From Marinospirillum sp. (GTDB lineage Bacteria > Pseudomonadota > Gammaproteobacteria > Pseudomonadales > Halomonadaceae), in contig NZ_JACUUA010000073.1 of NCBI RefSeq assembly GCF_014859565.1, forward strand, positions 1-15,003: a stretch of DNA of 15,003 nucleotides. Direction: 5' to 3'. Shown one piece after another: positions 1 through 15,003 of the stretch (the stretch's first letter is position 1; each line of letters opens with the position of its first letter). Position numbers and translations under genes: made by a program. The notes under the pieces are model-generated. The model was given only the letters and a program-made list of their open reading frames with translations. It was not told the origin of the DNA and searched no databases.

Positions 1-53
1 AGGTCACGCATGAACTTGGCATCATCAACAATCAATATGCGAATTTTTTTCAT
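1..53 (-). CDS. Response regulator, CheY-like receiver (partial, cut by window edge)
   Basis: Only the first 17 codons are visible, reading MKKIRILIVDDAKFMRD from an ATG at 53-51; the gene runs off the left edge. The first beta strand (IRILIVDD) followed by the acidic pair and AKFMRD is the standard opening of a receiver domain. The residue after the acidic pair is Ala rather than the Glu typical of PhoB (DDE), and the FMRD/FIRD stretch recalls stand-alone CheY-like regulators. It is therefore probably not PhoB, although it sits downstream of a phosphate operon. No clear Shine-Dalgarno is visible just before the ATG (CAGATT). Output domain and function cannot be judged from so short a piece. 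Confidence 0.75.
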   Translation of the reverse strand, partial: MKKIRILIVDDAKFMRD

Positions 54-184
54 AATCTGTCCAGCAAGCCAATGCGGAATAAATGGCACTCATTAACCCA
101 CAATTTTAACGGTAGATAAATAGGGAGCTTGCTAGAAACTATTTTTTCATAAGTCACAGGATATAGATTGGGTGTCAAGACTGT
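54..184. other. Intergenic region upstream of the response regulator
   Basis: AT-rich non-coding stretch between the end of the pst2 unit and the minus-strand response regulator. A perfect TTGACA -35 hexamer lies on the minus strand at 178-173, but no good -10 follows at 16-18 bp; the nearest candidate is CTTATG, at a spacing of about 19. The regulator therefore probably has its own promoter here, but its exact position is not settled. No open reading frame of note was seen. Confidence 0.4.
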
Positions 185-223
185 AAAAAGCTGCTGAACA
201 CTGCAAAGCAGGACGCTGAGCAG
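185..223 (-). terminator. Possible intrinsic terminator of the pst2 operon
   Basis: Read on the minus strand, ACTGCT pairs with AGCAG(C) around an inner CTGC-TTT-GCAG hairpin, and CTTTTTAC follows directly. The stem is interrupted by an internal loop of unequal sides, so it is imperfect. The position fits the end of the pst2 transcript, after the phoU remnant and before the response regulator promoter region. A further 7-bp inverted repeat (213-219 with 241-247, ACGCTGA/TCAGCGT) overlaps it and spans the remnant stop codon, so an alternative fold is possible. Confidence 0.4.
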
Positions 224-240
224 TATTCAACTGGAGCGGT

Positions 241-327
241 TCAGCGTTTTATGTGGCTCTGTAGAATGCCTTCCATCTCATCATCAAAACGCTGCGAAAT
301 GTGACCATCAATGCGTGGTGTACTCAT
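241..327 (-). pseudogene. phoU remnant (28-codon N-terminal stub)
   Basis: A 28-codon frame starts at an ATG at 327-325, 12 nt after the pstB2 stop, with a good GGGAG ribosome site 5 nt upstream. It ends at a TGA at 243-241. Its middle reads HISQRFDDEMEGI, which matches HISQRYNEELEDI of the intact PhoU in this window (residues 11-23), with 8 of 13 identical and the rest mostly conservative. After IKR the stop intervenes, and no frame of the following sequence resembles PhoU. This is the place where pst operons normally carry phoU, so a second phoU appears to have been lost except for its translation start. The alternative is that the stub is still translated as a small peptide. Confidence 0.7.
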
Positions 328-339
328 TGCAGGCTCCCA

Positions 340-1155
340 TCAGCCAAAGCGGCCAGTGATGTAGTCTTCGGTACGTGAATCGGTTGGGTTGGTGAAGATT
401 TCACGGGTATCGTTCAGTTCCACCAGGTTTCCAAGGTGGAAAAACGCAGTTTTATCAGACACACGAGCCGCCTGCTGCATGTTGTGGGTCACAATGGCAA
501 TGGTGTAACTGCCTTTCAGTTCATCAATCAGCTCTTCGATGATGGAGGTGGCAATCGGATCCAGTGCAGAGCAGGGTTCGTCCATCAGGATGACTTCCGG
601 GCTTACAGCAATGGCACGGGCAATACACAGACGCTGCTGCTGACCACCGGACAGCCCAGTACCAGGTGATTCCAGGCGGTCTTTAACTTCTTCCCACAGA
701 CCAGCACGGCGCAGGCTGGATTCAACCACATCTTCCAGATCACGTTTGTTGTCGACCAGTCCATGCAGGCGTGGACCGTAGGCGATGTTTTCAAAAATCG
801 ATTTGGGGAAGGGGTTGGGTTTCTGGAATACCATGCCAACCTGGGCACGCAGTTGCACCACATCCAGGCTGCGGTCATAAATGTCCTTGCCATCCAATGT
901 CACCAAACCAGTCACTCGCGCAATGTCGATGGTGTCATTCATGCGATTCAGACACCGCAAGAAGGTGGACTTGCCACAACCGGATGGACCGATAAAAGCA
1001 ATGACCTCGTTTTCCAGAACATCCATGCTGATGCCGTGCAGGGCTTCATTGTTGTCGTAAAACACCTTTACATCACGGGCGGTCATTTTTATGGCGTGTT
1101 CGGCCTGTGTTGCGTCAGATTTTTTCTCTTTAAAGCTAACTTGCATAGTATTCAT
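340..1155 (-). CDS. pstB: Phosphate ABC transporter ATP-binding protein PstB (Pst2)
   Basis: Cytoplasmic ATPase that drives phosphate import through PstC2-PstA2. From the ATG at 1155 (271 residues), Walker [10 protein letters not shown] lies near residues 56-64, the Q-loop VFQKPNPFP near 109-117, the signature LSGGQQQR near 168-175, Walker B VILMDEP near 188-194 and the H-loop VTHNMQQ near 222-228. This is a full PstB motif set with the family-typical RCLNRMND after Walker A. An upstream ATG at 1176 would add seven residues. The 1155 start is preferred because AGAGGA sits 5 nt before it, while nothing comparable precedes 1176. The gene follows pstA2 after 24 nt and closes the Pst2 set. The N-terminal 20 or so residues are polar and precede the ATPase fold. 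Confidence 0.95.
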
Positions 1156-1179
1156 GGCTGGCTGTCCTCTATTCATGGC

Positions 1180-2571
1180 TTACCAACGTGTTTCAAAGTG
1201 TTTGCGCAGCCAGATAGCCAACGCGTTGAGGGATATCATCAGTGCCAGGAGCACGATGATGGCAGCGGAGGTACGCGCTTCGAAGAAGTTGCGTAACTCG
1301 TTGCCTTGCCACAGGTAAATCTGCACCGGCAGAGCAGTGGATTGGTCAAATGGGGTGCCAGGTACACTGGCAACAAAGGAACTCATACCGATTAGCAGCA
1401 GTGGAGCGGCTTCGCCTAATCCCTGTGCCACCCCCAGAATCGAGCCGGTAAGAATACCGGGAATTGCCAGTGGTAATACATGGTGGAATACCGACTGTAC
1501 CTTCGAAGCACCAATGCCCAGTGCCGCCTGACGAATCGACGGTGGAATGGCTTTTAGAGTAGAGCGAGTGGCAATGATTACTGTGGGTAGTGTCATTAGT
1601 GACAACACCAGGCCACCAACAATGGGTGCTGACAGGGGAAGTTTGAACCAGAGGATAAACACCGAGGCACCCAGCAGACCAAACACAATGGATGGCACTG
1701 CAGCAAGGTTGTTGATGTTCACCTCAATCAGATCAGTGATGCGGTTTTTTGGTGCAAACTCCTCCAGATAAATGGCTGAACCAACGCCCACCGGCACAGC
1801 CAGGAACATGACAATCAGCATCATCATTAATGAGCCTATAAATGCCCCGGCCAGACCCGCCGATGCCAGTGAGCTGCGTGAGTCAGCGTTCATGAACAGT
1901 GCGGTGCTGAATTTGTTGCGGATGATGCCACGCTCCGACAGTTCATCTGCCCAGATACGAGTACGGGCGCTGAGCTGTTGCTTATGATCCGGCAGGCTGC
2001 GGTCAATGTTGCCCTTCAGCCAGACATCCACGTTGGCGTCCGCCAGCAGATTCAGGCGCAGGGTTTGACCAATGATGGCTGGATTGTCATTGACCAGCTG
2101 GCGCAGGCCAAAACGTTCACCACTGGTGACCAGCCGCATGGCATCCCGCTGATATTTCGGAGCTTCCGGTAATACTTCTGCCAATGAGTTAAGGATAATC
2201 CGGTTGAAGTTTATAAACCCAAGATCCGTTTGCCAGGCCAGCATCCGTTGTTCAAAAGCTGCATCGTTCTCACCGGGCTGCTGCTGGGGTTTTTCTTCAA
2301 TCTCGATAATCTCTGGATCAAAATACACATCCAGCGTCAGGGTGGCCTGCCAGAAAGCGGGCAGCCCCTTGGACAGAATAGTGAAAAACAGGATGGCTAC
2401 AAAAATCAGGGCAATGGACACGGCAGCCATGCCATAAAAACGAAAACGCTTTTCCTGAGCATGGCGGCGTTTTAAAGAAGCGGCCACACGTTTTTGCATG
2501 ACATTACGTTTGAGTGCCAGATCTTCTGGAACCGGCTGATGGTTATCAGGTGTATTCATCGGCTTACTCAT
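1180..2571 (-). CDS. pstA: Phosphate ABC transporter permease PstA with N-terminal extension (Pst2)
   Basis: Inner-membrane permease that pairs with PstC2. From the ATG at 2571 it is 463 residues, against about 300 for E. coli PstA. A basic cytoplasmic head (about 20-45) is followed by one membrane helix (about 46-66). A periplasmic segment of about 160 residues (75-230) comes next, then the usual permease core (about 240-455). The EAA loop near 351-375 reads ALGIGASKVQ and VLPLAIPGI. The head plus periplasmic part resembles the N-terminal domain I recall as DUF3333 in long PstA proteins. The ATG overlaps the pstC2 stop (ATGAGTAA), which implies translational coupling. A TTG at 2595 lengthens the frame but lacks support; ATG 2559 is a second option. 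Confidence 0.92.
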   Translation of the reverse strand: MSKPMNTPDNHQPVPEDLALKRNVMQKRVAASLKRRHAQEKRFRFYGMAAVSIALIFVAILFFTILSKGLPAFWQATLTLDVYFDPEIIEIEEKPQQQPGENDAAFEQRMLAWQTDLGFINFNRIILNSLAEVLPEAPKYQRDAMRLVTSGERFGLRQLVNDNPAIIGQTLRLNLLADANVDVWLKGNIDRSLPDHKQQLSARTRIWADELSERGIIRNKFSTALFMNADSRSSLASAGLAGAFIGSLMMMLIVMFLAVPVGVGSAIYLEEFAPKNRITDLIEVNINNLAAVPSIVFGLLGASVFILWFKLPLSAPIVGGLVLSLMTLPTVIIATRSTLKAIPPSIRQAALGIGASKVQSVFHHVLPLAIPGILTGSILGVAQGLGEAAPLLLIGMSSFVASVPGTPFDQSTALPVQIYLWQGNELRNFFEARTSAAIIVLLALMISLNALAIWLRKHFETRW

Positions 2572-3949
2572 ATTGTTCACGGTATTTGCGGACAATCACC
2601 AGCGCTACCACGTTTAACATCAGTGTGATGGCAAACAGGGTCAGGCCCAGTGCAAAGGCCACCAGAGACTGTGGGCCGGCAAAATCCAGGTCACCGGTCA
2701 GCTGGTTAACAATGGTGACGGTCATGGTGGAAACTGCCTCGAAGGGATTGGCAGTAAGCACCGGACTGTTACCGGCGGCCAACACCACAATCATGGTTTC
2801 ACCGATGGCGCGACTGGCCGCCAGCAGGATGGCACCTACAATGCCCGGTAGCGCTGCAGGCAGCACCACCTTGCGAATTGTTTCTGATTTGGTGGCACCT
2901 AGTCCCAGTGAGCCATCACGCATGGCCTTAGGCACCTGAGTGATGATGTCGTCCGACAGGGAGGAGATAAAAGGAATAATCATGATGCCCATCACCACAC
3001 CTGCAGTCAGCGCCGAGGTGGTGCGAATTTCCAGTCCAAACGTGGCACCAAACTGGTTAAGAAATGGACCAACGGTGATCAGGGCAAAAAAACCGTAAAC
3101 AATAGTCGGGATACCGGCCAGCACTTCAATGATGGGTTTGGCGGTGGAGCGCACTTTGGAGGGTGCATATTCAGCCATGTAGATAGCTGCCATCAGGCCA
3201 ACAGGAATAGCTACAGCCAATGCGATCAGGGCAATCATCAGGGTGCCCCACAGCAGTGGCAACATGCCAAAGCCGGTTTGACCGTCAGTACCAACCGTTG
3301 AGAAGCGCGGATTCCAGGTGGTGCCGAAGAAGAAGTCGACGGGATTAACAAAACTAAAAAAACGAAAGGTTTCACCGACCATCGACAATACAATACCAAC
3401 AGTGGTCAGGATGGCGACAGTGGAGCAGAAGATTAACAACCAGCGGATAATGGTTTCCATCTGGTTACGAGCACGCAGTTGCGGCTCTATGCGTCGCCAG
3501 GCCAGTACCAGTGCAGCGGAAGCCACGCTGGCCATCAGTGCCAGCATCAGTACATGGCTCCCGGTGCGCAGTTGGTTCAGATAGGCGGCAGCAGCCAACT
3601 CATGATCTGATGCTTCTTCAATCAGACCAAAACCGGAAGCCAGATTGGTCAGACGGCGCAGCAGGATACGTTGATCAGTATCGGTGACTGGCTGGAATTC
3701 CAGCGGTAACTGGGCAAGCACCATGGCATTAATGATACCGGGCTGCATCAGGCTCCAGACAGTATAAATTGTTGCTGCCGGTACGACTGTCCAGAAGGCC
3801 ACCAGCATACCGTGATAAATGGGTCGGGAGTGCATCCGAGTCCCGGTGCCTGCCAGGGTGATAGCCACCTTTTTGCTGCGGGTCAGGCCGACCTGGTAGG
3901 CCAGAGCCATGACCATCAGCAGTAAGGACATCAAAACCAGATTGCTCAT
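2564..3949 (-). CDS. pstC: Phosphate ABC transporter permease PstC with N-terminal extension (Pst2)
   Basis: Inner-membrane permease of the second Pst system, 461 residues against about 320 in E. coli. Helices near 3-20, 45-67, 131-150 and 169-190 surround a short periplasmic loop and precede the classic core (about 230-455). The core carries the EAA loop near 346-370 (GSLGLGATKSETI, VLPAALPGI) and the family signature SRAIGETMIV near 379-388. The extra N-terminal part resembles the domain I recall as PF12501, found in long PstC proteins. The gene lies 77 nt after pstS2, across a strong hairpin, and overlaps pstA2 at its end. Only a weak ribosome site (GGGCAAAACATAT before ATG) precedes it, in keeping with lower expression than pstS2. 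Confidence 0.93.
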   Translation of the reverse strand: MSNLVLMSLLLMVMALAYQVGLTRSKKVAITLAGTGTRMHSRPIYHGMLVAFWTVVPAATIYTVWSLMQPGIINAMVLAQLPLEFQPVTDTDQRILLRRLTNLASGFGLIEEASDHELAAAAYLNQLRTGSHVLMLALMASVASAALVLAWRRIEPQLRARNQMETIIRWLLIFCSTVAILTTVGIVLSMVGETFRFFSFVNPVDFFFGTTWNPRFSTVGTDGQTGFGMLPLLWGTLMIALIALAVAIPVGLMAAIYMAEYAPSKVRSTAKPIIEVLAGIPTIVYGFFALITVGPFLNQFGATFGLEIRTTSALTAGVVMGIMIIPFISSLSDDIITQVPKAMRDGSLGLGATKSETIRKVVLPAALPGIVGAILLAASRAIGETMIVVLAAGNSPVLTANPFEAVSTMTVTIVNQLTGDLDFAGPQSLVAFALGLTLFAITLMLNVVALVIVRKYREQYE

Positions 3950-3981
3950 ATATGTTTTGCCCTATGTGTTTCTGATGTGCG

Positions 3982-4011
3982 AAACCGGGGATGCAAGCAG
4001 AGCCCCGGTTT
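3982..4011 (-). promoter_or_regulatory. Intercistronic hairpin between pstS2 and pstC2
   Basis: A perfect 9-bp inverted repeat (AAACCGGGG at 3982-3990, CCCCGGTTT at 4003-4011) with a 12-nt loop lies wholly within the 77-nt pstS2-pstC2 gap. No T-run follows on the minus strand, so it is not a standard terminator. A smaller stem (CGGT-GTT-ACCG, 4015-4025) adjoins the pstS2 stop. Such structures after binding-protein genes commonly protect the upstream mRNA or reduce read-through, giving more PstS than membrane subunits; that role is inferred here. Confidence 0.7.
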
Positions 4012-4026
4012 GTGCGGTGTTACCGA

Positions 4027-5058
4027 TTACTTCATGATGGTACGGGCGCGTACTGCACGAATCACATCACGACGTTCACTGGATGGCATTGGAATCAGAC
4101 CAGCAGATTCCAGCGGGCTGCCAGCGCCACCGACTTCTTCACTCATGAAGTAGAGGGTGTATTCCAGCAAACCAGGTACAACACCTACGTGCTGGTTTTT
4201 AACGTAGAAGAACAGCGGGCGGGATACCGGGTATTCACCACTGGCAATGGTTTCCAGGCTGGGTGTAACACCACTCATGGTGGCTACACGCAGACGGTCA
4301 CGGTTCTGGTCATAGAAGCTCAGACCGAATACACCCAAGGCGTTACGCTGAGCATCCAGACGTGCCAGAGTTTCGGTGTAATCACCAGCGACTTCAACTA
4401 CACGACCATCGGTACGAATAGCGTTACAGAAATTGGTGCGGGCACTTCTGTCCATGGCTTTGACTTCAGCAAAAGTCTGGCAACCGGGGTGCACTACGGC
4501 TTCTTCATAAACTTCACGGGTGCCGTGGTTGGAGCCGGGGATCACCAGCAAGATTTCCTGATTTGGCAGGCTAGCGTCAATCTGGTTCCAGTGGGTGTAG
4601 GGGTTGCTTACCATGCGACCGTTTCGTGGTATTTGTGCAGCACCAGCCTGGAAAATATGTTCAGGCTTCAGGGCAAATGAGGCACTGTCAGTACGAGAAG
4701 CAAACACAATGCCGTCATAACCAAATTTTACTTCGATGACTTCGGTTACACCGTTGCTTTTGCAGTTGGCCAGCTCATTAGGGCGAATCGGGCGTGAGGA
4801 GTTGGCTATGTCGATGGTGTTTGCGCCGATACCCTGACAGAACTGACGCAGACCGCCGCCGGAACCGCCGGAACCAACCACTGGGGTACGGAACTGTGGA
4901 AAGGAGTGACCAAATTCTTCTGCCACGATGGATGAAAATGGCAGTACAGTGGATGAACCGGCAATTTGAATGGTGTCACGCGCCATGACCGGTGCCGCCA
5001 GGGTCATGCCGGCGGCAGCGATCAGTGCGATTGATAGGTTTGTTTTGCGCTGTGTCAT
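4027..5058 (-). CDS. pstS: Periplasmic phosphate-binding protein PstS (Pst2)
   Basis: Captures phosphate in the periplasm and delivers it to PstC2-PstA2. The 343-residue product starts at an ATG with GAGGAA 6 nt upstream. The signal peptide covers about 1-26, with cleavage expected after PVMA. Phosphate-site motifs are visible: AGSSTVLPF near 33-41, GSGGSGGGLRQF near 62-73, ANSSRP near 85-90 and PGSNHGTREVYEE near 174-186. Four cysteines (about 74, 99, 193, 211) could form disulfides in the periplasm. There is no lipobox, so it should be soluble. It heads the second operon behind a Pho box at 5172-5189. Arsenate would be a competing ligand; selectivity cannot be judged from the sequence. Confidence 0.95.
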   Translation of the reverse strand: MTQRKTNLSIALIAAAGMTLAAPVMARDTIQIAGSSTVLPFSSIVAEEFGHSFPQFRTPVVGSGGSGGGLRQFCQGIGANTIDIANSSRPIRPNELANCKSNGVTEVIEVKFGYDGIVFASRTDSASFALKPEHIFQAGAAQIPRNGRMVSNPYTHWNQIDASLPNQEILLVIPGSNHGTREVYEEAVVHPGCQTFAEVKAMDRSARTNFCNAIRTDGRVVEVAGDYTETLARLDAQRNALGVFGLSFYDQNRDRLRVATMSGVTPSLETIASGEYPVSRPLFFYVKNQHVGVVPGLLEYTLYFMSEEVGGAGSPLESAGLIPMPSSERRDVIRAVRARTIMK

Positions 5059-5171
5059 GCTTGATTCCTCATCTGATTTCGAAGGTTACGACCAGCAGGC
5101 CAAAGCCTCTGAATTGATCGCTAACTCGAACGAAGTTTGCAGCGAGTTTATTTCATCAACATGTCCGATAT

Positions 5172-5189
5172 GTGACAGTTAGATGACAG
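5172..5189 (-). promoter_or_regulatory. Pho box (PhoB site) upstream of pstS2
   Basis: On the minus strand the site reads CTGTCATCTAACTGTCAC. This is two heptamers, CTGTCAT and CTGTCAC, separated by 4 nt, nearly identical to the known PhoB consensus of 11-bp-spaced CTGTCAT repeats. It lies 114 bp before the pstS2 start and just after the phoU stop. The downstream -10 is weak (CATGTT about 8 nt after the box), as is common in PhoB-dependent promoters. It shows that pst2 has its own phosphate-starvation promoter. Confidence 0.88.
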
Positions 5190-5204
5190 CGCAAAATCGG
5201 CTTA

Positions 5205-5966
5205 TCAGCCTTCAAGATCCTCGTTAGTGCGTTGGTCTATGGGAGTGTGCTGGCTGATGGCTTCCTCAATCTTGTCTGTCTTGGTGTAGCGAACATCCTG
5301 CCCTTCGACTAGATAGATAACAATTTCCGCCAGATTGCTGGCATGGTCACCCACCCGTTCCAGTGAACGCAGCACCCACATGATATTCATCACCTTGGAG
5401 ATGGAGCGGGGATCTTCCATCATAAAAGTGACCAGTGCACGCGTGGCTGAACGGTATTCCAGGTCCACATTGTCATCTTCACGCAGCACCGTCAGCGCCT
5501 GAGCAGAATCAAAGCGTGCAAAGGCATTCAGGGCATCCTGCACCATCTGACGAACATGAGCACCCAGATGGCGTGCTTCAATATAACCTCTGGGCGAATT
5601 GCCTTCCTCAGCCAGCAGCAGGGTGGCGCGGGCAATTTTACTGGCCTCATCACCCATGCGTTCCAGATCTGAGGTGGCACGAATCACCGCCAGTACCAGT
5701 CGCAGGTCGGAGGCAGCAGGCTGGCGGCGTGCCAGTATTTGGGTGCATTGTTCATCTATATCCAGTTGCAGGCGGTTAACCTGCTTGTCGCGCTGGCGCA
5801 CTTCACTGGCGAGGCGACTGTCACCATCCACCAGTGACTGAATGGCATCCTGGATCTGCTGCTCTACTAATCCGCCCATTTCCAGAAGATGGCTGCGAAT
5901 GTCTTCCAGTTCTTCGTTATAACGCTGTGATATGTGAGTGGTGTGACTTTCTTTACTGATTCTCAT
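5205..5966 (-). CDS. phoU: Phosphate signalling and transport regulator PhoU
   Basis: Cytoplasmic protein that links Pst activity to the PhoR/PhoB two-component system and restrains phosphate uptake. It has 253 residues, slightly longer than E. coli PhoU (241). The opening HISQRYNEELEDIRSHLLEMGGL fits the first helix of the PhoU fold. Each half carries the metal-binding ExxxD pattern: LERMGDEASKIA near 101-112 and LERVGDHASNLAE near 202-214. RRQPAASDLRLV near 80-91 is another conserved PhoU stretch. It follows pstB1 after 32 nt, so it belongs to the pst1 operon. It is the only intact phoU here and probably serves both transporters. A 4-bp hairpin overlaps its stop codon but is too weak to call a terminator. 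Confidence 0.95.
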   Translation of the reverse strand: MRISKESHTTHISQRYNEELEDIRSHLLEMGGLVEQQIQDAIQSLVDGDSRLASEVRQRDKQVNRLQLDIDEQCTQILARRQPAASDLRLVLAVIRATSDLERMGDEASKIARATLLLAEEGNSPRGYIEARHLGAHVRQMVQDALNAFARFDSAQALTVLREDDNVDLEYRSATRALVTFMMEDPRSISKVMNIMWVLRSLERVGDHASNLAEIVIYLVEGQDVRYTKTDKIEEAISQHTPIDQRTNEDLEG

Positions 5967-5998
5967 GATGTTCTGCTCGCTTGTGGTGTGCAGGGTTT

Positions 5999-6802
5999 TC
6001 AGCCATAACGGCCGGTGATGTAGTCTTCAGTTTGTTTGTGTGCCGGGTTGGTGAACAGGGTTTCGGTATTGTCAAACTCCACTACCTGCCCCAGGTACAT
6101 AAAAGCGGTGTAGTCGGATACTCGCGCAGCCTGTTGCATGTTGTGGGTGACAATCACAATGGTGAAACGGTTTTTTAATTCGTGGATCAGCTCTTCAATT
6201 TTTAGTGTGGAAATCGGATCAAGGGATGACGCCGGTTCATCTAGTAGCAAGATTTCTGGTTTTACGGCAATGGTGCGGGCAATGACCAGGCGCTGCTGCT
6301 GACCACCGGACAGCTCCAGAGCAGACTCATGCAGGCGGTCGCGGGTTTCCTCCCAAAGCGCGGCAGACCGCAAGGCCCACTCCACGGTTTCATCCAGCAG
6401 ACGCTTGTTGTTGATGCCCTGTACCCGTAATCCATAAGCTACGTTTTCGTAGATGGTTTTTGGGAAGGGGTTGGGTTTCTGGAATACCATACCAACCCGA
6501 CGACGCAGATCTGGCACATCCACTCCCCGCCCGTGAATTTCCTGGCCATCAATGAGTACCTTACCGCTGTGGCTAGAGCCTTCCACCAGGTCATTCATGC
6601 GATTAAAAGTGCGGATCAGTGACGATTTACCACAACCGGACGGACCGATAAAAGCAGTGACACGTTGGCGTGGAATTGCCAGATTTATTTTCTCCAGTGC
6701 AAGGGTGTCGCCATAAAAAAGTGAGAAGTCCTCGACCTGGATGCAGATGCTTTCATCGGCAAGATTCGGCAGTCGGTGATGTGTGTATGGCGCGTCGGTC
6801 AT
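5999..6802 (-). CDS. pstB: Phosphate ABC transporter ATP-binding protein PstB (Pst1)
   Basis: ATPase of the first Pst system. From the ATG at 6802 (267 residues), Walker [10 protein letters not shown] lies near 53-61, the Q-loop [10 protein letters not shown] near 106-115, the signature ELSGGQQQR near 163-171, Walker B ILLLDEP near 184-190 and the H-loop VTHNMQQ near 218-224. The final [10 protein letters not shown] closely matches the end of PstB2 ([10 protein letters not shown]), a family trait. A TTG two codons upstream (6808) extends the frame, but the ATG is preferred; an AGG lies 9 nt before it. It starts 11 nt after the pstA1 stop. It shares much sequence with PstB2 but differs throughout, so the two are not a recent duplication. 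Confidence 0.95.
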
Positions 6803-6813
6803 GGTCAAGCCTG

Positions 6814-8490
6814 TTATAAGTCCAGTGCGCGATATTTTTCACGCAGGTGATTGCGCAGGGCAATGGCGGTCAGGTTGAGTACCAGAATTACCAGTACCAA
6901 CAGCAGCGCGGTGGCATACACCAGCGGTCTGGCTGCTTCGATATTGGGGCTCTGGAAACCGACATCATAAATATGAAAACCAAGATGCATGAATTTGCGC
7001 TCCAGATGTACATAAGGTGCGTTCATGTCGATGGGTAAGCTGGGTGCCAGTTTGACGACACCCACCAGCATCAGGGGAGCCACTTCCCCGGCCGCACGTG
7101 CCACGGCCAGGATAACTCCGGTCATCATGGCTGGGCTGACCATCGGCAGGATTACCCGCCACAGGGTTTCCGCTTGATTGGCACCCAGTGCCAGTGAGCC
7201 TTCCCGCAGAGAGCGTGGAATCCGTGACAAGCCTTCCTCGGTGGCCACAATAACCACCGGCAGGGTAAGTAGAGCCAGAGTCAGTGAAGCCCATAACAGG
7301 CCGGGTGTGCCAAAGGTAGGGGCGGGCAGGGCTTCAGGGAAAAAAAGCTGATCCAGGCCACCGCCGATAAAATAGACAAAAAACCCCAGACCAAACACGC
7401 CATAAACAATGGAGGGCACCCCAGCAAGATTGTTAACAGCAATACGTATGGTGCGGGTGAGCCAGTTCTGGCGGGCGTATTCGTGCAGGTAAATGGCAGC
7501 CACAATACCCATTGGTGCCACCATTACTGACATGATGAGCACCAGTGTGACTGTACCGAACAGTGCCGGGAAGATACCCCCTTCGGTATTGGCCTCTCGT
7601 GGCCCTTCAGAAACAAAAGCCCAGAGATTGCGCAGGTACAGGCCGAACTTCTGCAAAAAGTTCAGGTTATTGGGTTGATACAGGTTAACCAGCGAGCGAA
7701 AAGGCAGCTCCAGTAACTGACCATCTGCTGTTTCCAGTAACAGGCTGTCCCGAGTCAGGGGTTTATGGATGGCTCGCAGTTGTTTCTCCAATCGCTGGTA
7801 TTCCGCCAGTAGGTGGTTGCGTTCTTGTTGCAGTGCATGCATTTGTGCTTCATCAATCTGGTCACGCAGCAGCAGACGACGCTCAGCCAGTCGCAGGCGT
7901 TCCAATTGATGGTTAACAGCACTGATAGCGTGTTGTTCCAGCTGGCGCATTTGGTGCTGCAATTGGTGGATTCGCTGCAGGCGCTGCTGAACTTCATCCC
8001 AGAGCCGGTTTTCATGCTGTTGTTGTTCAGCGATTAGTTGACCATCTTGCTGAATACCACGGATATAACCATAAAAATTACCCCATTCGCTGCGTTGCAG
8101 AGCAACGGCATAACGGGGGTAGTGAGGTGCACCTACCTGATGCTCAAGCACCCAGCGAAAATCCAGACCATAAAGATCCCGGTTGCCGACCTTAATCAGC
8201 AGGCGCTTTAGGTAAATACTGTCAGCCGGAACAGGCAACCCGGCATTACGGATCTGATCAGCACTGACTTGCTGGTGCTCAACAACTTCACCCAATAGCT
8301 GTAACTCTTGACCCTGGTGATCGGTATAGGTGAACTGCTGCAAATTATCAGGCCAGAAATGGCTGAGTCCACGCACCAGCAGAATACCCATCAGACCAAC
8401 AACCAGCAGCAGGCTGATGGTGACAGCACCGGCATTCAGCCAGACCCAGGGTAGTCCGGTTCGCAGCCATTCCCTCAGGGGTGTCCGCAT
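6814..8490 (-). CDS. pstA: Phosphate ABC transporter permease PstA, long form with coiled coil (Pst1)
   Basis: Permease partner of PstC1, 558 residues from the ATG at 8490, nearly twice E. coli PstA. After one membrane helix (about 17-41) comes a periplasmic region of some 260 residues. Its second half (about 153-243) is a long Gln/Glu/Leu/Arg-rich helix with heptad-like spacing, read as a coiled coil. The permease core follows (about 305-555), with the EAA loop near 434-456 ([20 protein letters not shown]) and the PstA-type [10 protein letters not shown] near 466-475. Two in-frame ATGs upstream (8505, 8502) would add five residues. The 8490 start is chosen because GGAG sits 6 nt before it. 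Long PstA proteins of this kind occur in Pseudomonas relatives; the role of the extra part is unknown to me. Confidence 0.92.
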
Positions 8491-8508
8491 GTTTTGCTCC
8501 ATCATGGT

Positions 8509-10767
8509 CTAAAGGCGACTGTACTTGTGTCGCAACCGCTGGCGCACCAGTTCAGCCAGGGTGTTGACCATAAAAGTGAATACAAATAGCACCAGCGCCG
8601 CCATAAAAAGAATGCGGTAATGGGTGCTGCCCACAGCCGACTCACCCATCTCCACCGCGATATTGGCTGCCAGCGTACGCATCCCTTCAAAAATGTTGGC
8701 ATTCATGATTGGTGTATTACCGGTGGCCATTAGCACAATCATGGTTTCACCCACAGCACGACCAGTGCCAATCATGATGGCAGAAAAAATACCGGGGCTG
8801 GCGGTCGGCAAAATGACTCTGACCAGTGTTTGCCAGGGTGTGGCACCTAACGCCAGTGAGCCGTGGCTGAGTGATCGAGGCACACCAAACAGGGCGTCCT
8901 CGGCAATGGAGTAGATGGTGGGGATTACAGCAAAACCCATGGCAAAACCCACCACCAGCGCATTACGCTGATCGTAGGGGATGCCCAGCTCACTGCTTAA
9001 CCAGTGCTGCATATTCCCAGCAAACAGCTGTGATTCCAGCGGTTGGCTCAGGCTTAATGCCAGCCAACCCGTCAGCAGGATGATCGGAATCAGCAGTAAG
9101 CTATGCCAGCCATCTGGAATCCTGTATTTCATTGAGTCTGGAAGGTGGAACCAGAGGTAACCAAACACCAGCATACTCAGTGGTAAAAGTAACAACAGGG
9201 CAAAAATGCCGGGTAGGTATTGTTCTACAAAAGGCGCAAGGAACAGGCCAGCAAAAAAACCCAGTACTACTGTTGGCAGGGCTTCCATCAATTCGATGAT
9301 GGGTTTGATTTTACGCCGTAGCGCGGGAGCCATAAAAAAGGCGGTGTACATGGCACCACAAATTGCCAACGGGATCGACAAAAGCATGGCATAAAAAGCA
9401 GCTTTAAGCGTGCCAAAAGCCAGCGGTGTCAGGCTGAACTTGGGTTCAAATTCATTGGAAGCAGAAGATGACTGCCAAGTGTAGGATGGTTCCTGATATC
9501 CCTCATACCAAACCTTGCTCCACAAAGCTTTGAATGACACCTCTGGGTGAGGGTTATCCAGACTAATACCATGCAGCTGGTGATGTTTATCCACGGCCAG
9601 TAACAGGCTGCCGCGTGGTGACAGAGCCATCAACTGAGTATCGGCTGGTAACAGTTGACCACTGATGGAGCGATTTTCCGCTGTAGTATTAAAGATACCC
9701 AGTTGTCCACTGGCATCCACAGCAGCTAACCCCTTGCGTCGGAATTCCGGCACCAGCAGGGTAACTGGCTGGTTACTCAGTTGCAGGCTGCGGATCCGTG
9801 TCAGTTGTGGCTCTTGGTGTTCATCCCGCACCATAAACCATTGGCTGATTTTTCCTGCACTGTCGGCCGTCAACAGTGACTGATTGCCCAGTTGCAGCAC
9901 CATGCCGGTTAGGGTTTGCCCTGCGGGTAGCAGTTGCAGGGTTTTATCCTGTTGCCCTTGCAGCAGTTGCAGTTGGCCTTGCTGATTGGCCAGGTAAACC
10001 TGCCGGTGACCGGGAGTGGTCAGCAGAAAATCCGGTGTTGTATTCAGCTGCTGGATACTGTGTTGGGTGGCCCGTAAAGGCGAGGGTTGCTGCAGGCTGG
10101 GTGCCTGTTGTAACCCGATGTGCACCAGCAACAGCTGATCACCACTGACCGCAGCCACTGACAATTCACCACCCTGTTGCTGGTGGTGCAACAAACGAAT
10201 GGGTTGATCGGAAGCGCCTAATGGCAAGGGTTGGTCACCCAGCGGGAAATGCACACGAGGGTTAACACCGATCCGCTGACCCTGTTGATCAAACATCATT
10301 GGATATTCCGGCTGGATGACCAGCAATCGTCCATCATCCAGCCCAAGCAGCAACAGACGGCTGCTGGGATGAGGCACACTGACAGCGCTGATCTTGCGGC
10401 CTTGTAATGCAAGTTGTTGAGTTGCCAGTGGTTGTTGATCAACCAGATCAATGAAGTGCAGTGTGCCATCAGCAGTCAGCAGGGTAGCCAACTGGTCTTG
10501 TTCTTCGGTCAGCAGTGCGAGGGGTTCTTGCTGCTCTGACAGATGAAGTGCATGGGTAAGACGGTGCTCAGTGGAGGCTGACTGAAACAGCGGCATAACT
10601 TCATACAGTAGATAAAAGAAAATCAGGGTGATCGCCAGAATCACCGACAGCCCACTAGCAGCCACCATCCAGGTAATCCCACGATTGTAACCGGCGCGCA
10701 GTCGTCGCCGCTGCATAATGCGGGGGCTTGCCAACTCCTGTTCCAGTTTATCCGAGATGCTTTTCAT
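8509..10767 (-). CDS. pstC: Phosphate ABC transporter permease PstC, long form with periplasmic beta-rich domain (Pst1)
   Basis: Permease of the first Pst system, 752 residues against about 320 in E. coli. A basic cytoplasmic tail (1-30) and one helix (about 31-57) lead into an insert of about 385 residues (62-447). That insert is predicted to be periplasmic because it lies between the first and second helices. It is built of short repeating strand-turn units such as RLLLLGLDDGRLLVI (137-151) and GLAAVDASGQLGIF (346-359), suggesting a WD40/beta-propeller-like fold. The permease core follows (about 448-745) with the EAA loop near 637-660 (SLALGATPWQTL, VILPTASPGI) and GRAVGETMIVLM near 669-680. 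It begins 27 nt after pstS1 with a poor ribosome site. Related long PstC proteins exist in Pseudomonas and Vibrio; what the insert senses or binds is unknown. Confidence 0.92.
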   Translation of the reverse strand: MKSISDKLEQELASPRIMQRRRLRAGYNRGITWMVAASGLSVILAITLIFFYLLYEVMPLFQSASTEHRLTHALHLSEQQEPLALLTEEQDQLATLLTADGTLHFIDLVDQQPLATQQLALQGRKISAVSVPHPSSRLLLLGLDDGRLLVIQPEYPMMFDQQGQRIGVNPRVHFPLGDQPLPLGASDQPIRLLHHQQQGGELSVAAVSGDQLLLVHIGLQQAPSLQQPSPLRATQHSIQQLNTTPDFLLTTPGHRQVYLANQQGQLQLLQGQQDKTLQLLPAGQTLTGMVLQLGNQSLLTADSAGKISQWFMVRDEHQEPQLTRIRSLQLSNQPVTLLVPEFRRKGLAAVDASGQLGIFNTTAENRSISGQLLPADTQLMALSPRGSLLLAVDKHHQLHGISLDNPHPEVSFKALWSKVWYEGYQEPSYTWQSSSASNEFEPKFSLTPLAFGTLKAAFYAMLLSIPLAICGAMYTAFFMAPALRRKIKPIIELMEALPTVVLGFFAGLFLAPFVEQYLPGIFALLLLLPLSMLVFGYLWFHLPDSMKYRIPDGWHSLLLIPIILLTGWLALSLSQPLESQLFAGNMQHWLSSELGIPYDQRNALVVGFAMGFAVIPTIYSIAEDALFGVPRSLSHGSLALGATPWQTLVRVILPTASPGIFSAIMIGTGRAVGETMIVLMATGNTPIMNANIFEGMRTLAANIAVEMGESAVGSTHYRILFMAALVLFVFTFMVNTLAELVRQRLRHKYSRL

Positions 10768-10794
10768 GCAAGGGCTCTGTAATCTGCTAACGGC

Positions 10795-11748
10795 TTAAAG
10801 GCCAAGCAACTGGTGCAGTTGTTCGACCCGCCAGGGAGCCAGCGGTATGTAACCATCACGTAGAACCACACCTTGCCCCTGCTGTGACAGTACCATGCGA
10901 ATGAATTCACGCTCCAGAGGGGGTAAGGGCTGGTTCGGGCGTTTGTTGACATAAATATAGAGAAAACGTGACAAGGGAAAGTCCCCACGTGAAGTCTGCT
11001 CAGGAGTGGCTTCAATATACGGTTGATCAGCAGACCGCGCCAGGGCGATGGCACGAACAGAAGAAGTACGGTAACCAATACCGGAATAACCTATGGCATT
11101 CAGCGAGGTGGATATAGCCTGCACAACCGAGGCAGATCCAGGCTGTTCGTTGACATTATTGCGAAAATCACCACCGCACAGTGCCACACTTTTGAAATAA
11201 CCATAGGTGCCGGAAACCGAGTTGCGTCCGTAGAGTTGAATGGGGCGATTGCTCCAACTGCCGGTCAATCCCAGATCCCCCCAGTGATTAACTGGTTGGT
11301 TGGCACCGCAGTGGCGTGTGGATGAAAAAATGGCATCCAGCTGGCTCAGTGTAAGACCCGTTAATGGATTGTCTTTATGGACATAAACAGCAAGTGCATC
11401 TATTGCAACTGGAATAGCTGTTGGAGGGTAACCATGGCGCATTTCAAAAGCCTGGACTTCGGAATCACGCATCGGGCGCGACATGGCACCCAGATTGGCA
11501 GTACCTTCTGCCAAAGCCGGTGGTGCAGTGGAGGAGCCGGATGCCTGAACCTGGATATGAATGCCTGGATAAAAGTGCCGGAACTCTTCAGCCCAGAGGG
11601 TCATCAGATTTGCGAGGGTGTCTGATCCGACCGTAGACAGGTTACCGGAGATACCACTGATGCGCTGGTAATCAGGCAGACCACGCACATCGGCAGCTTG
11701 CAGCGGCAGGCAGGCAAACAGCAGTACGTAAAAAAACCTGAAAGGCAT
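10795..11748 (-). CDS. pstS: Periplasmic phosphate-binding protein, PstS-like (Pst1)
   Basis: Substrate-binding protein of the first system, 317 residues. The ATG at 11748 is preferred: GGAG lies 8 nt upstream, and the product begins with a clean signal peptide ([18 protein letters not shown], cleavage after residue 18). The open frame continues 48 codons upstream to 11892, but that part has no secretion signal and would bury this one. Ligand motifs are VGSDTLANL near 40-48, [11 protein letters not shown] near 69-79, AMSRPM near 88-93 and [12 protein letters not shown] near 174-185, as in the PBP-like PstS family. It differs strongly from PstS2, so the two systems may differ in affinity or in phosphate/arsenate discrimination. 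It heads the pst1 operon; a possible Pho box lies at 11802-11819. Confidence 0.9.
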
Positions 11749-11977
11749 GTAGGAATCTCCGAAATTGGAAATATGGCAACGGGTGAGTTTCACAGATGAA
11801 AATGACATTTTGATGAAGGTGCAAATGTTTTTTACAGCAGCTGCTTTTGTTTGGCATCTGGTCTGAATAATGGCCGATTGCAGGCCGATCACAAAATGTT
11901 TGCTTTCCTTAAGTCAGGCGTTAAGCTTTGTTGTATCGCAACTGCGAAAAAAACAATGACAACAGAGTGAAGCAGCC
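11749..11977. promoter_or_regulatory. Divergent intergenic region between pstS1 and the thioesterase gene
   Basis: This 229-bp gap must hold the promoters for both directions. On the minus side it contains a candidate Pho box. On the plus side there is a tight TCGCA-AC-TGCGA inverted repeat (11936-11947) flanked by TTGTT and AACAA, about 30 bp before the thioesterase start. A GAGTGA ribosome site precedes the ATG at 11978. No convincing -35/-10 pair was identified for the thioesterase. Confidence 0.5.
11802..11819 (-). promoter_or_regulatory. Candidate Pho box upstream of pstS1
   Basis: On the minus strand it reads CCTTCATCAAAATGTCAT, which agrees with the CTGTCAT-AAAA-CTGTCAT consensus at 13 of 18 positions: a good second heptamer (ATGTCAT) and a weaker first one (CCTTCAT). 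A GAAACT hexamer lies 10 nt downstream, the spacing expected for a PhoB-driven -10. It lies 54 bp before the pstS1 start. It is clearly weaker than the pst2 site. Confidence 0.45.
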
Positions 11978-12394
11978 ATGACACAACTTGATGATCTGGA
12001 AGATATCCCCGGTCCGGAAGGACAATTAACCCTGAAGCTGGTTGCCACCCCACGAGATACCAACCTACACGGTGATATTTCTGCCGGCTGGGTAGTATCC
12101 CAGATGGAGCAGGCTGCTGAATTGACTGCCGCCCGGCTTGCACATGGCCGTACAGCAACTGTAGCGATTACCGGCATGGATTTTCTTTGCCCGGTACGTC
12201 TTGGCAGTTTGGTACAGATTTATACCGAATTACAGGAAACCGGCACCAGCTCGATGAAATACAACGTTCAGGTGTGGATTCTGCCACCGAATGAAAAAGA
12301 TCCGGACAGTCTCTACAAGGTGACCGAGGCAACTTTTGTGATGGTCGCACTGGATGAAAAGGGGCGTATTCGTACCCTGCCCGGACAAATCTAA
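11978..12394 (+). CDS. Hotdog-fold acyl-CoA thioesterase, YciA family
   Basis: Cytoplasmic enzyme of 138 residues expected to hydrolyse acyl-CoA to free acid and CoA; YciA proteins have about 130-155 residues. The active-site stretch is TPRDTNLHGDISAGWVVSQM (about 24-43), matching the YciA pattern of DTN..GDI..GW with catalytic Asp near 33. ITGMDFLCPVRLGSLVQIYTEL (about 64-85) forms the next hotdog strands. The usual GDIFGGW appears as GDISAGW, a conservative variant. GAGTGA lies about 6 nt before the ATG. It is transcribed away from pst1 and toward gap-arsJ, with 74 nt and no obvious terminator between. A link to phosphate or arsenate is not evident; it may simply be a neighbour. Substrate is not predictable. 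Confidence 0.85.
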   Translation: MTQLDDLEDIPGPEGQLTLKLVATPRDTNLHGDISAGWVVSQMEQAAELTAARLAHGRTATVAITGMDFLCPVRLGSLVQIYTELQETGTSSMKYNVQVWILPPNEKDPDSLYKVTEATFVMVALDEKGRIRTLPGQI

Positions 12395-12401
12395 TCATTC
12401 A

Positions 12402-12419
12402 TTGTAATATTCTTGTCAT
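12402..12419 (+). promoter_or_regulatory. Possible Pho box before gap-arsJ
   Basis: TTGTAAT and TTGTCAT are direct repeats with a 4-nt spacer, the exact 7-4-7 layout of a PhoB site. Matches to CTGTCAT are 5 of 7 and 6 of 7. The spacer (ATTC) is AT-rich. The nearest -10 candidates (TATATG at 12425, TATGAT at 12427) come 5-7 nt after the box rather than about 10, which weakens the call. TTGTAA (12402) with TATATG at 17 bp could instead be an ordinary sigma-70 promoter. Confidence 0.4.
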
Positions 12420-12433
12420 CTTCTTATATGATC

Positions 12434-12449
12434 TTGTGCGCATGCACAA
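12434..12449 (+). promoter_or_regulatory. 16-bp palindrome in the gap-arsJ leader, candidate operator
   Basis: TTGTGCGCATGCACAA has perfect 6-bp arms (TTGTGC/GCACAA) around GCAT. It lies just downstream of the likely -10 (TATATG/TATGAT) and 19 bp before the gap start, where a repressor would block transcription start or elongation. An arsenic-responsive repressor such as ArsR would be a natural owner, but the site does not obviously match ArsR operators I know and no arsR is in the window. Confidence 0.45.
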
Positions 12450-12468
12450 ATATTAACGAGGTGACAGC

Positions 12469-13467
12469 ATGGCTATTAAGGTAGGAATTAACGGTTTTGG
12501 TCGTATGGGACGTCTGGCATTACGTGCAGCCTGGGACTGGCCGGAGCTGGAGTTTGTACGTATTAATGATCCAGCCGGTGATGCCGCTACCCACGCCCAC
12601 CTGCTGAACTTCGACTCGGTACAAGGCACCTGGCAGCATCAAGCCAATGCGGAAGGTAATAGCATCCTGATCGGCGGCCAGCGTTTACAAGTCACCAACA
12701 GCAAAACAATTGCTGAAGTAGACTGGTCCGATTGTGATCTGGTGCTGGAGTGCTCCGGCAAGTTCAAAACCAAAGCCTTGTTACAAGCCTATCTGGATCA
12801 GGGTGTAAAGCGGGTGGTGGTTTCTGCACCGCTCAAGGAAGAAGGTGTACTCAACGTGGTGATGGGGGTGAATGATCAGCTTTATGACCCGGCTATACAT
12901 CCCATCATCACTGCCGCCTCTTGCACCACCAACTGCCTGGCACCGGTTGTTAAGGTGATCCATGAACACCTTGGCATCCGCCACGGTAGCATGACCACCA
13001 TTCACGACATCACCAATACCCAGACCATTCTGGATGCACCCCACAAGGATCTGCGTCGTGCACGCGCCTGTGGCATGAGCCTGATCCCCACTACTACTGG
13101 TTCAGCCAAGGCCATCACTGATATTTTCCCCGAGTTAAAAGGCCGTTTAAATGGCCATGCCGTGCGTGTACCCCTGGCTAACGCCTCCCTGACTGACTGT
13201 GTTTTTGAGGTGGAAAAAGCCACTACACCGGAAGCAGTGAATGCCCTGCTGAAGGCTGCGGCGGAAGGTGAGCTGAAGGATATTCTGGGTTATGAAGAAC
13301 GTCCGCTGGTTTCCATCGACTACAAGGGTGATCCACGCTCATCCATCGTAGATGCCCTGTCCACCATGGTGATCAACGGCACCCAGGTAAAAATTTATGC
13401 CTGGTATGACAATGAGTGGGGATATGCCAGCCGCCTGGTAGAACTGGCGCGGAAAGCGATGGCCTGA
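12469..13467 (+). CDS. gap: ArsJ-associated glyceraldehyde-3-phosphate dehydrogenase
   Basis: Type I GAPDH of 332 residues. With arsenate in place of phosphate it converts glyceraldehyde 3-phosphate to 1-arseno-3-phosphoglycerate, the substrate exported by ArsJ. The NAD-binding start [10 protein letters not shown] lies at 6-15. The RINDPA segment (31-36), where the glycolytic enzyme has INDL, keeps the NAD-type Asp. The catalytic motif [10 protein letters not shown] gives Cys152, with His179 in TTIHDIT as general base. The C-terminal [12 protein letters not shown] is standard. The [34 protein letters not shown] opening and the immediate arsJ neighbour place it with the arsenic-linked group rather than housekeeping glycolysis. 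Its ribosome site GAGGTG is well placed, and arsJ follows after 5 nt. A glycolytic role as well cannot be excluded. Confidence 0.92.
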
Positions 13468-13472
13468 TCCTT

Positions 13473-14699
13473 ATGCTGAATCAGCTGTCGACCGGTGTTA
13501 AGCAATATCTGGTGGTGACCGGTAACTACTGGGCGTTCACCCTGACGGACGGTGCCTTACGGATGCTGGTGGTGTTGTATTTCCACCAGCTGGGTTATGC
13601 ACCGCTGCAGATTGCATTGCTATTCCTGTTTTATGAGTTTTTTGGAGTAGTCACCAATCTTGTAGGCGGCTGGCTGGGTGCGCGGCTGGGGCTGAACCGC
13701 ACCATGAACATCGGGTTGGCGCTGCAGATAGTCGCTTTGGTGATGCTGCTGGTGCCTGCAGAGTGGCTGACCGTAGCCTGGATGATGGTGGCACAAGCCT
13801 TTTCCGGTATTGCCAAGGATTTAAACAAGATGAGCGCCAAGAGCGCCATCAAGACCCTGGTGCCTGCAGATGCTCAGGGGCGCTTGTATCACTGGGTGGC
13901 CCTGCTGACTGGCTCCAAAAATGCTCTTAAGGGTTTTGGATTTTTCCTTGGTGCGTTGTTGCTGACCTGGCTGGGTTTTGCTGGTGCCGTGCTGGTGATG
14001 GCAATCATGCTGACACTGGTGTGGATCGCCTCGCTGTTCCTGCTCAAACAAGAGCTGGGGCGGATGAAAAACAAGCCAAAATTCACCGATGTGTTTTCCA
14101 AAAGCCGAGCGATTAATGTGCTGTCGCTGGCGCGTTTTTTCCTGTTTGCCGCGCGGGATGTTTGGTTTGTAGTGGCACTGCCGGTGTATTTATCCCAGAC
14201 ACTGGGCTGGGATTTCTGGCAGATCGGTGGTTTTATGGCCAGCTGGATTGTTGCTTACGGCGTAGTGCAGGCACTGGCACCCCGTATAACCGGCAAGGCC
14301 GATGGTCGAGTGCCGGGTCGTAATGCCACCGCCAGCTGGGGATTGGCACTGGCAATCACCCCCTTGCTGATACTGCTGGGTTTTTACCTGCAATGGCAGC
14401 CGGATACACTGATCATTACCGGCTTGCTGCTGTTCGGCCTGCTGTTTGCGGTGAACTCATCCGTGCACAGCTTCCTGATTGTCAGCCACGCCCGCAGTGA
14501 CGGTGTATCACTGGATGTCGGCTTTTATTACATGGCTAATGCCATGGGACGCCTAATTGGCACCCTGTTGTCCGGTTATGTATTTCAAGTCTGGGGGCTA
14601 ACCGCCTGCCTGTGGATCTCTGCTCTATTTATCCTGCTGGCAGCATTAATTGCACTGGCAATGCCAAAACCGGAAATAACAAATACCACCAGCCAGTGA
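13473..14699 (+). CDS. arsJ: Organoarsenical efflux MFS transporter ArsJ
   Basis: Inner-membrane major facilitator of 408 residues that expels 1-arseno-3-phosphoglycerate; outside, that compound breaks down to arsenate and 3-phosphoglycerate. The product opens MLNQLSTGVKQYLVVTGNYW and continues with TDGALRMLVVLYFHQLGY, both typical of ArsJ. About 11-12 hydrophobic helices span the protein. The first inter-helix region holds GGWLGARLGLNRT (about 64-76), the MFS A-type loop. AFSGIAKDLNKMSAKSAIKTLVP (about 109-131) is a family hallmark. The ATG at 13473 follows the gap stop by 5 nt with little ribosome site of its own, so translation is probably coupled. A longer frame from 13416 lies inside gap and is not used. 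Confidence 0.93.
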   Translation: MLNQLSTGVKQYLVVTGNYWAFTLTDGALRMLVVLYFHQLGYAPLQIALLFLFYEFFGVVTNLVGGWLGARLGLNRTMNIGLALQIVALVMLLVPAEWLTVAWMMVAQAFSGIAKDLNKMSAKSAIKTLVPADAQGRLYHWVALLTGSKNALKGFGFFLGALLLTWLGFAGAVLVMAIMLTLVWIASLFLLKQELGRMKNKPKFTDVFSKSRAINVLSLARFFLFAARDVWFVVALPVYLSQTLGWDFWQIGGFMASWIVAYGVVQALAPRITGKADGRVPGRNATASWGLALAITPLLILLGFYLQWQPDTLIITGLLLFGLLFAVNSSVHSFLIVSHARSDGVSLDVGFYYMANAMGRLIGTLLSGYVFQVWGLTACLWISALFILLAALIALAMPKPEITNTTSQ

Positions 14700-14703
14700 T
14701 ATG

Positions 14704-14727
14704 GGCTGTTCTATACAGCCTATTTTG
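14704..14727 (+). terminator. Rho-independent terminator after arsJ
   Basis: GGCTGT (14704-14709) pairs with ACAGCC (14715-14720) around a 5-nt loop and is followed by TATTTTG. The stem begins 4 nt after the arsJ stop. Its position and T-rich tail fit the end of the gap-arsJ transcript; the tract is broken by one A, so efficiency may be moderate. Confidence 0.72.
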
Positions 14728-14837
14728 TATTCAGTATCCAAAGTTGCTCAAAAACAAACTGAGCCTGCTCATTTGCACCCAGCACTGACAAGAAATATCC
14801 AATAAAAACAATGCACTGTTAGTGCTGCCAGGAAGAT

Positions 14838-14876
14838 AACACGCAAGCATAAAGGACAAAGTTGTGCTTGCGCGTT
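14838..14876. repeat. Long hairpin: 12-bp inverted repeat with one mismatch
   Basis: AACACGCAAGCA (14838-14849) pairs with TGCTTGCGCGTT (14865-14876) with one A-C mismatch and a 15-nt loop. No T-run follows on either strand, so a simple terminator is unlikely. It could be an RNA stability element, a REP-like repeat or a protein site; nothing in the window repeats it. Confidence 0.6.
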
Positions 14877-14948
14877 TACATCCCTGCCCCTGCGATGGAT
14901 CAATAGACTTTTTCCAGAAAAATCGGTAAGTTGAATAAAAAACAGACG

Positions 14949-14980
14949 GTAGGCAGCAGTGACTTTTTGAGCATGCCTAC
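14949..14980. repeat. 7-bp inverted repeat near the right edge
   Basis: GTAGGCA (14949-14955) and TGCCTAC (14974-14980) are perfect complements with an 18-nt spacer that contains a TTTTT tract. A separate 14-bp palindrome ACAAAA-TG-TTTTGT follows at 14983-14996. Their closeness to the window end suggests a regulatory region of the next gene, which cannot be seen. Confidence 0.45.
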
Positions 14981-15003
14981 TAACAAAATGTTTTGTGCGC
15001 CGG

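Follow-up and report, generated by a model that had tools for sequence, protein, structure and literature searches.

A relic of a second phoU gene behind pstB2 in a Marinospirillum genome

Introduction

Bacteria with more than one PhoU protein have been described. In the account given for Mycobacterium smegmatis, the two PhoU paralogues have overlapping roles, and uptake through Pst appears to be toxic when both are missing (PMC5741670). This contrasts with what is reported for the pneumococcus, where PhoU2 is described as restraining Pst2 specifically (PMC4913102). Pst operons have also been found in arsenic islands. In the island of Halomonas GFAJ-1, arsJ and gapdh homologues stand beside a pst operon, and the term "phoU" is absent from the main text of that report (PMC5930303). 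Of the 21 arsenic islands in a survey, 10 are reported to have pst operons, and the control of pstS1 and phoU by ArsR in Agrobacterium 5A is quoted there (PMC3834237).

The present study concerns a DNA stretch of 15,003 nucleotides from Marinospirillum sp. (contig NZ_JACUUA010000073.1, positions 1 to 15,003), hereafter called the window. It carries two Pst operons, an intact phoU behind the first and a frame of 28 codons behind the second, which the initial annotation had proposed to be what is left of a second phoU. Among the open-licence papers listed by our searches for the loss of phoU or a second phoU, for phoU in Marinospirillum and for arsJ together with Pst, no report of such a relic was found.

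Results

Both Pst operons are on the minus strand and were assigned with NCBIfam and Pfam profiles: pstS1-pstC1-pstA1-pstB1-phoU1 runs from 11892 to 5205 and pstS2-pstC2-pstA2-pstB2 from 5058 to 340. In the first, phoU1 (5205..5966, minus) is intact, encodes 253 residues matching PF01895 and TIGR02135, is 93% identical to its counterpart in Marinospirillum alkaliphilum and is the PhoU left in the window; pstB1, pstA1, pstC1 and pstS1 follow it from low to high coordinate (5999..11892, minus). The second consists of pstB2 (340..1176, minus; TIGR00972; 94% identical to that of M. alkaliphilum), pstA2 (1180..2595, minus; TIGR00974), pstC2 (2564..3949, minus; TIGR02138) and pstS2 (4027..5058, minus), the latter matching PF12849, with 134 bits for TIGR02136 (under the cut-off of 206.6). 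When compared with M. alkaliphilum, the four pst2 genes display dN/dS ratios of 0.041-0.094 and phoU1 a ratio of 0.039, rough values since dS is high (0.7-1.7). As its genes are intact and constrained, Pst2 has been retained and is presumably working. In the first operon, PstC1 (8509-10767, minus, 752 aa) and PstA1 (6814-8505, minus, 563 aa) possess long extra N-terminal parts before the matched permease region, and pstC1 has the highest dN/dS (0.16) among the ten genes compared.

The 28-codon frame occupies positions 241..327 of the minus strand, reading from 327 to 241 as MSTPRIDGHISQRFDDEMEGILQSHIKR. Its ATG lies 12 nt beyond the pstB2 stop, with a GGGAG ribosome site six nt upstream of the ATG. 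We built a PhoU HMM from the phoU genes located behind pstB2 at the loci described below (34 of 35, the split phoU of L072 being left out) and ran it against 2251 stop-to-stop segments from 46 sets, namely 43 loci without phoU, L070, L115 and the window, each covering up to 1500 bases behind pstB (203 in L070, 1326 in L076 and 339 in the window). The frame was matched with E = 6e-4 and 16.7 bits, beyond what chance would give, the runner-up reaching 2.4 bits, so that the window is the only one of these 46 loci without full phoU to display a recognisable relic of the gene. The ribosome site and the PhoU-like opening pointed out in the initial annotation are thus confirmed. On the other hand, a Pfam search of the 28 residues gave no match. 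This was expected, since in the intact PhoU1 the stretch that best fits the PhoU domain starts only at residue 27. As for membership of the PhoU family (PF01895 / TIGR02135), the frame has the position of last gene in a pstSCAB operon and lacks the two PhoU domains. It is therefore a PhoU descendant and itself no PhoU, and its product, devoid of both domains, cannot have PhoU activity.

Just after the relic, positions 185..237 (minus) can form a hairpin followed by CTTTTT, likely to be the intrinsic terminator of the pst2 operon. In folding, which is how it was found, this hairpin has an energy of -24 kcal/mol and a z score of -4.98, and none of 200 shuffles was equally stable. A consensus terminator scan reported no terminator in the window, and a search of Rfam at gathering scores found nothing in it. 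At 1-53 (minus), 187 bp past the stop of the stub, a response-regulator-like gene (MKKIRILIVDDAKFMRD...) begins and is truncated by the edge of the window.

The loci used for comparison are the best 80 of 264 from a search of genome contigs with PstA2. The closest one among them is L001 from M. alkaliphilum, whose PstB2 and PstA2 are 94% and 90% identical to those of the window. The alignment with phoU genes of relatives that the initial annotation had called for supports its reading, since this nearest locus has a full phoU exactly there: an intact gene of 242 codons (P0001, L001:8934-9659) starting 13 nt after pstB2. Over the first 21 codons, PhoU2 of M. alkaliphilum reads MSTQRIDGHISQRFDEEMEGI and the stub MSTPRIDGHISQRFDDEMEGI, 19 of the 21 residues being equal. 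At the nucleotide level, 11 of these codons are identical, 8 differ synonymously and 2 non-synonymously; the probability of finding at most 2 non-synonymous changes among 10 is 5e-5 under neutrality. Such mostly silent changes indicate either that the deletion came late or that the stub is still constrained; in other words, constraint acted on phoU2 during most of the period after the divergence from M. alkaliphilum, or still acts on its stub.

The similarity resumes at the other end of the gene. The stub terminates with LQSHIKR and a stop, PhoU2 with VQSRPKR and a stop, and 15 of the 24 bases of this stop-anchored tail agree. Over 36 kb of the M. alkaliphilum region, 15 matches are reached at 2 of 35,978 positions, one of which is this very site; with the stop codon set aside, 12 of 21 bases agree, a level reached by 0.18% of positions. 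In more distant relatives PhoU2 ends differently, so this tail match comes from one relative. The frame had been said to end abruptly; its tail and stop instead fit the C-terminal end of PhoU2, with the terminator-like hairpin behind. Both hallmarks of a gene relic made by internal deletion are thus observed, namely the two ends of an intact homologue without its middle, and close relatives in which the gene is whole at this position.

To place the window among its relatives, we relied on a tree of PstA2 and PstB2 (81 rows, i.e. 79 loci, L115 and the window; quick search). On it, the window groups with M. alkaliphilum as its sister (99, starred as well supported). They belong to a starred clade of 13 rows, of which 11 have phoU, one has the relic (the window) and one has none, the latter being L115 from the metagenome-assembled genome (MAG) G006, with neither phoU nor relic behind pstB2. 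Since 11 of the 12 other rows of its clade, the nearest locus among them, carry a full phoU, the claim that Pst2 was formerly a pstSCAB-phoU operon that lost its own regulator is supported. At a larger scale, phoU is present behind pstB2 at 35 and absent at 43 of the 78 classifiable loci from the best 80 of 264, a count that excludes L011, whose locus has no pstB, and L070, where 203 bp of sequence follow pstB. Its state switches 9 times on the tree, gains and losses taken together, and 7 to 8 of these switches are forced by well-supported branches.

Close carriers of Pst2 in the genus, with a PstB2 above 80% identity, are G001 and the MAG G006, i.e. 2 of 8 genomes. In the family, 41 of 275 genomes encode a relative of PstS2 (E 1e-120), whose identity is 65-69% except in these same two. 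Another Marinospirillum, strain MEB164, encodes a PhoU 70% identical to PhoU2 of M. alkaliphilum and a PstS 81% identical to PstS2 of the window; as both are listed on a contig of 439,375 bases, this strain probably has Pst2 together with PhoU2. A protein search brought two further relatives of PstS2, P0121 and P0122, 90% and 86% identical to that of the window and 95% and 87% identical to that of M. alkaliphilum. The PhoU2 of the source of P0121 may hide in the cluster of P0001, and P0122 is encoded on a 58.6-kb contig. At L115, Pst2 adjoins phoB-phoR-like genes, as judged from ORFs, and PHO-box-like sites precede pstS2; a PhoU fragment is present on another contig of G006.

The surroundings of phoU2 have changed as well. 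pstB2, phoU2 and gap follow each other on one strand in M. alkaliphilum and in six loci that we label Nitrincola-type (L002-L006, L015), with arsJ next after gap in 6 of these 7 loci, the seventh contig ending within gap. In the window, the ArsJ-associated GAPDH gene (12469..13467, plus; NF033735, above cut-off), whose homologue stands directly behind phoU2 in M. alkaliphilum, and arsJ, for an organoarsenical efflux MFS transporter (13416..14699, plus; NF033734, above cut-off), are at the opposite, upstream end of the pst cluster. They point away from it, past a thioesterase gene that is divergent before pstS1 in both Marinospirillum genomes. The position of gap-arsJ in M. alkaliphilum implies that, in the window, either the pst block was inverted or gap-arsJ moved. 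With M. alkaliphilum as sister, we regard the gene order of the window as the derived one, which would have involved a break immediately after phoU2 in addition to the internal deletion. Within the same clade, four Vibrio loci (L007-L010) likewise show gap-arsJ upstream of pst2 and directed away from it; the arrangement has therefore changed at least twice.

A site resembling a PHO box, CTGTCAT-CTAA-CTGTCAC, lies upstream of pstS2 (5172..5189, minus) and scores 13/14 against what we take to be the PHO-box consensus. The site upstream of pstS2 in M. alkaliphilum reads CTGTCAT-CCAA-CTGTCAC and also scores 13/14, and 0.1 sites scoring at least 12 are expected per shuffled window. In M. alkaliphilum, a similar site (L001:9667-9684, 12/14) is located between phoU2 and gap; the one before gap in the window (12402-12419) is weaker, with 11/14, near chance level. 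These sites are a hint that arsenate efflux may be PhoB-controlled.

Discussion

Altogether, we consider, with a probability of about 90%, that the 28 codons are what one internal in-frame deletion has left of phoU2. The gene once closed the second Pst operon and would have been deleted in the lineage of the window after the split from M. alkaliphilum. A single deletion of about 642 bp, spanning codons 22-235 of 242 (214 codons), would have brought the final 7 codons and the stop directly behind codons 1-21, thereby removing both PhoU domains. This history is our best reading because the last codons and the stop of the stub match the end of PhoU2. The junction would lie approximately at 259..270 (minus), around codons 20-23. 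CATCGT is found at both corresponding sites of M. alkaliphilum, which makes a repeat-mediated deletion plausible, and a CATCGT-like short repeat at both ends could have aided the event; shared runs of at least 6 bases occur at 1.3% of 609 offsets in M. alkaliphilum, this pair included. As the start, ribosome site and stop were spared, the operon still ends cleanly before the terminator-like hairpin.

One could wonder whether the frame is instead a small gene in its own right, translated and kept, for instance as a helix-1 fragment competing for one of the partners of PhoU, or as a short frame that, by coupling, protects the operon end. It has an undamaged start, ribosome site, reading frame and stop, and its codon changes with respect to M. 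alkaliphilum are mostly synonymous, but this bias is also expected if phoU2 stayed intact until recently, and the one-in-three chance that a deletion is in frame is enough to explain the open frame. Above all, a conserved small protein should recur, and a similar short frame was found at none of the 45 other scanned loci without full phoU, the 78 classifiable loci from the best 80 of 264 carrying behind pstB2 either phoU (35) or nothing of it (43). Likewise, relatives that share the 28-residue frame while none has a full phoU, the pattern that would have spoken for a genuine small gene, did not appear among the loci examined. A functional 28-aa peptide is thus unlikely, and we would give its retention as a gene very little credit. 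We give even less to an artefact of assembly, in which a collapse between short repeats would have removed the middle of phoU2 in silico. The six-bp repeat at the two sites of M. alkaliphilum would permit it, but six bp is a very short repeat for an assembler to collapse; moreover, the tail has diverged from that of M. alkaliphilum and the relic is followed by a different order of genes.

Another hypothesis concerns the reason for the loss rather than the relic itself: in a cell exposed to arsenate, a Pst2 free of PhoU could be beneficial, as phosphate uptake would outcompete arsenate. The window contains arsJ and the ArsJ-associated GAPDH gene, the state of phoU changes repeatedly on the tree, and the described islands lend themselves to this idea, the pst operon of GFAJ-1 being listed as pstB, pstA, pstC, pstS in the text of that report (PMC5930303) and the survey giving 10 pst operons for 21 islands together with pstS1 and phoU under ArsR (PMC3834237). 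Nevertheless, over our 78 loci (from the best 80 of 264), the absence of phoU is not associated with arsenic linkage (18/35 linked with phoU, 19/43 without it; Fisher P = 0.65, a test that, like the following ones, ignores kinship). The result is the same with laxer ArsC cut-offs (18/35 against 22/43, P = 1.0), which add ArsC-like neighbours at L046, L073 and L075, all without phoU, and with arsJ/GAPDH only (14/35 with phoU against 11/43 without, P = 0.22). A tie between the loss of phoU and the Pst operons of arsenic islands was accordingly rejected. In addition, the sister M. alkaliphilum keeps phoU2 with gap-arsJ right behind it, and deleting either pst operon of GFAJ-1 is described as leaving its arsenic resistance unaffected (PMC5930303). 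A selected uncoupling hence appears improbable. Its fuller version is more doubtful by about half: selection in an arsenate-facing bacterium would have freed Pst2 from PhoU, with the 28-aa frame retained for a clean end of translation or for the tuning of PhoU1, one PhoU reading one transporter while the other imports without feedback. We rather conclude that the loss of phoU2 is real and is a case of ordinary gene decay, recurring in an operon family of which many members have no phoU at this place.

What would then restrain Pst2? It would still be PhoB-controlled through its own PHO box, and control of pst2 by PhoB is the likeliest situation. Considering that the pst2 genes are intact and constrained, that a PHO-box-like site precedes pstS2 and that phoU1 is intact, PhoU1 most likely serves both transporters, and it could now act in trans on PstB2 or on PhoR, in the way it would for PstB1. 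By analogy, the toxicity of Pst in M. smegmatis lacking PhoU would argue that a free Pst2 needs some PhoU.

A comparison can be drawn with PhoU-less second Pst operons such as those of Halomonas/Vreelandella, Billgrantia and Alishewanella and that described for the GFAJ-1 arsenic island (PMC5930303). Like that of the window, they are of the pstSCAB type without a full phoU behind pstB, and some of them stand beside arsJ/GAPDH or ArsC-like genes (two ArsC-like proteins that we checked match arsenate reductase models below the curated cut-offs). Unlike the window, the fetched loci have no recognisable phoU remnant. The relic represents a repeatedly occurring change caught in the act. The closest counterpart is phoU2 of M. 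alkaliphilum, which shares with the relic its place, its spacing (13 against 12 nt), the matching N-terminal residues, the C-terminal codons and the stop. It differs by its 242 codons with both PhoU domains and by gap-arsJ behind it, whereas the relic is followed by the terminator-like hairpin and the response regulator gene. Although the deletion itself is ordinary decay, the two sisters, one with and one without phoU2 and both keeping phoU1, constitute a natural experiment that asks if a single PhoU is able to govern a pair of Pst transporters, and they bear on how PhoU restrains Pst uptake. A parallel can finally be made with Streptococcus pneumoniae and M. smegmatis, which have more than one PhoU, as the lineage of the window had. 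In M. smegmatis, the loss of one PhoU is described as being buffered by the other (PMC5741670). The difference is that both species keep their two phoU genes intact, while in the window only one of the two remains whole.
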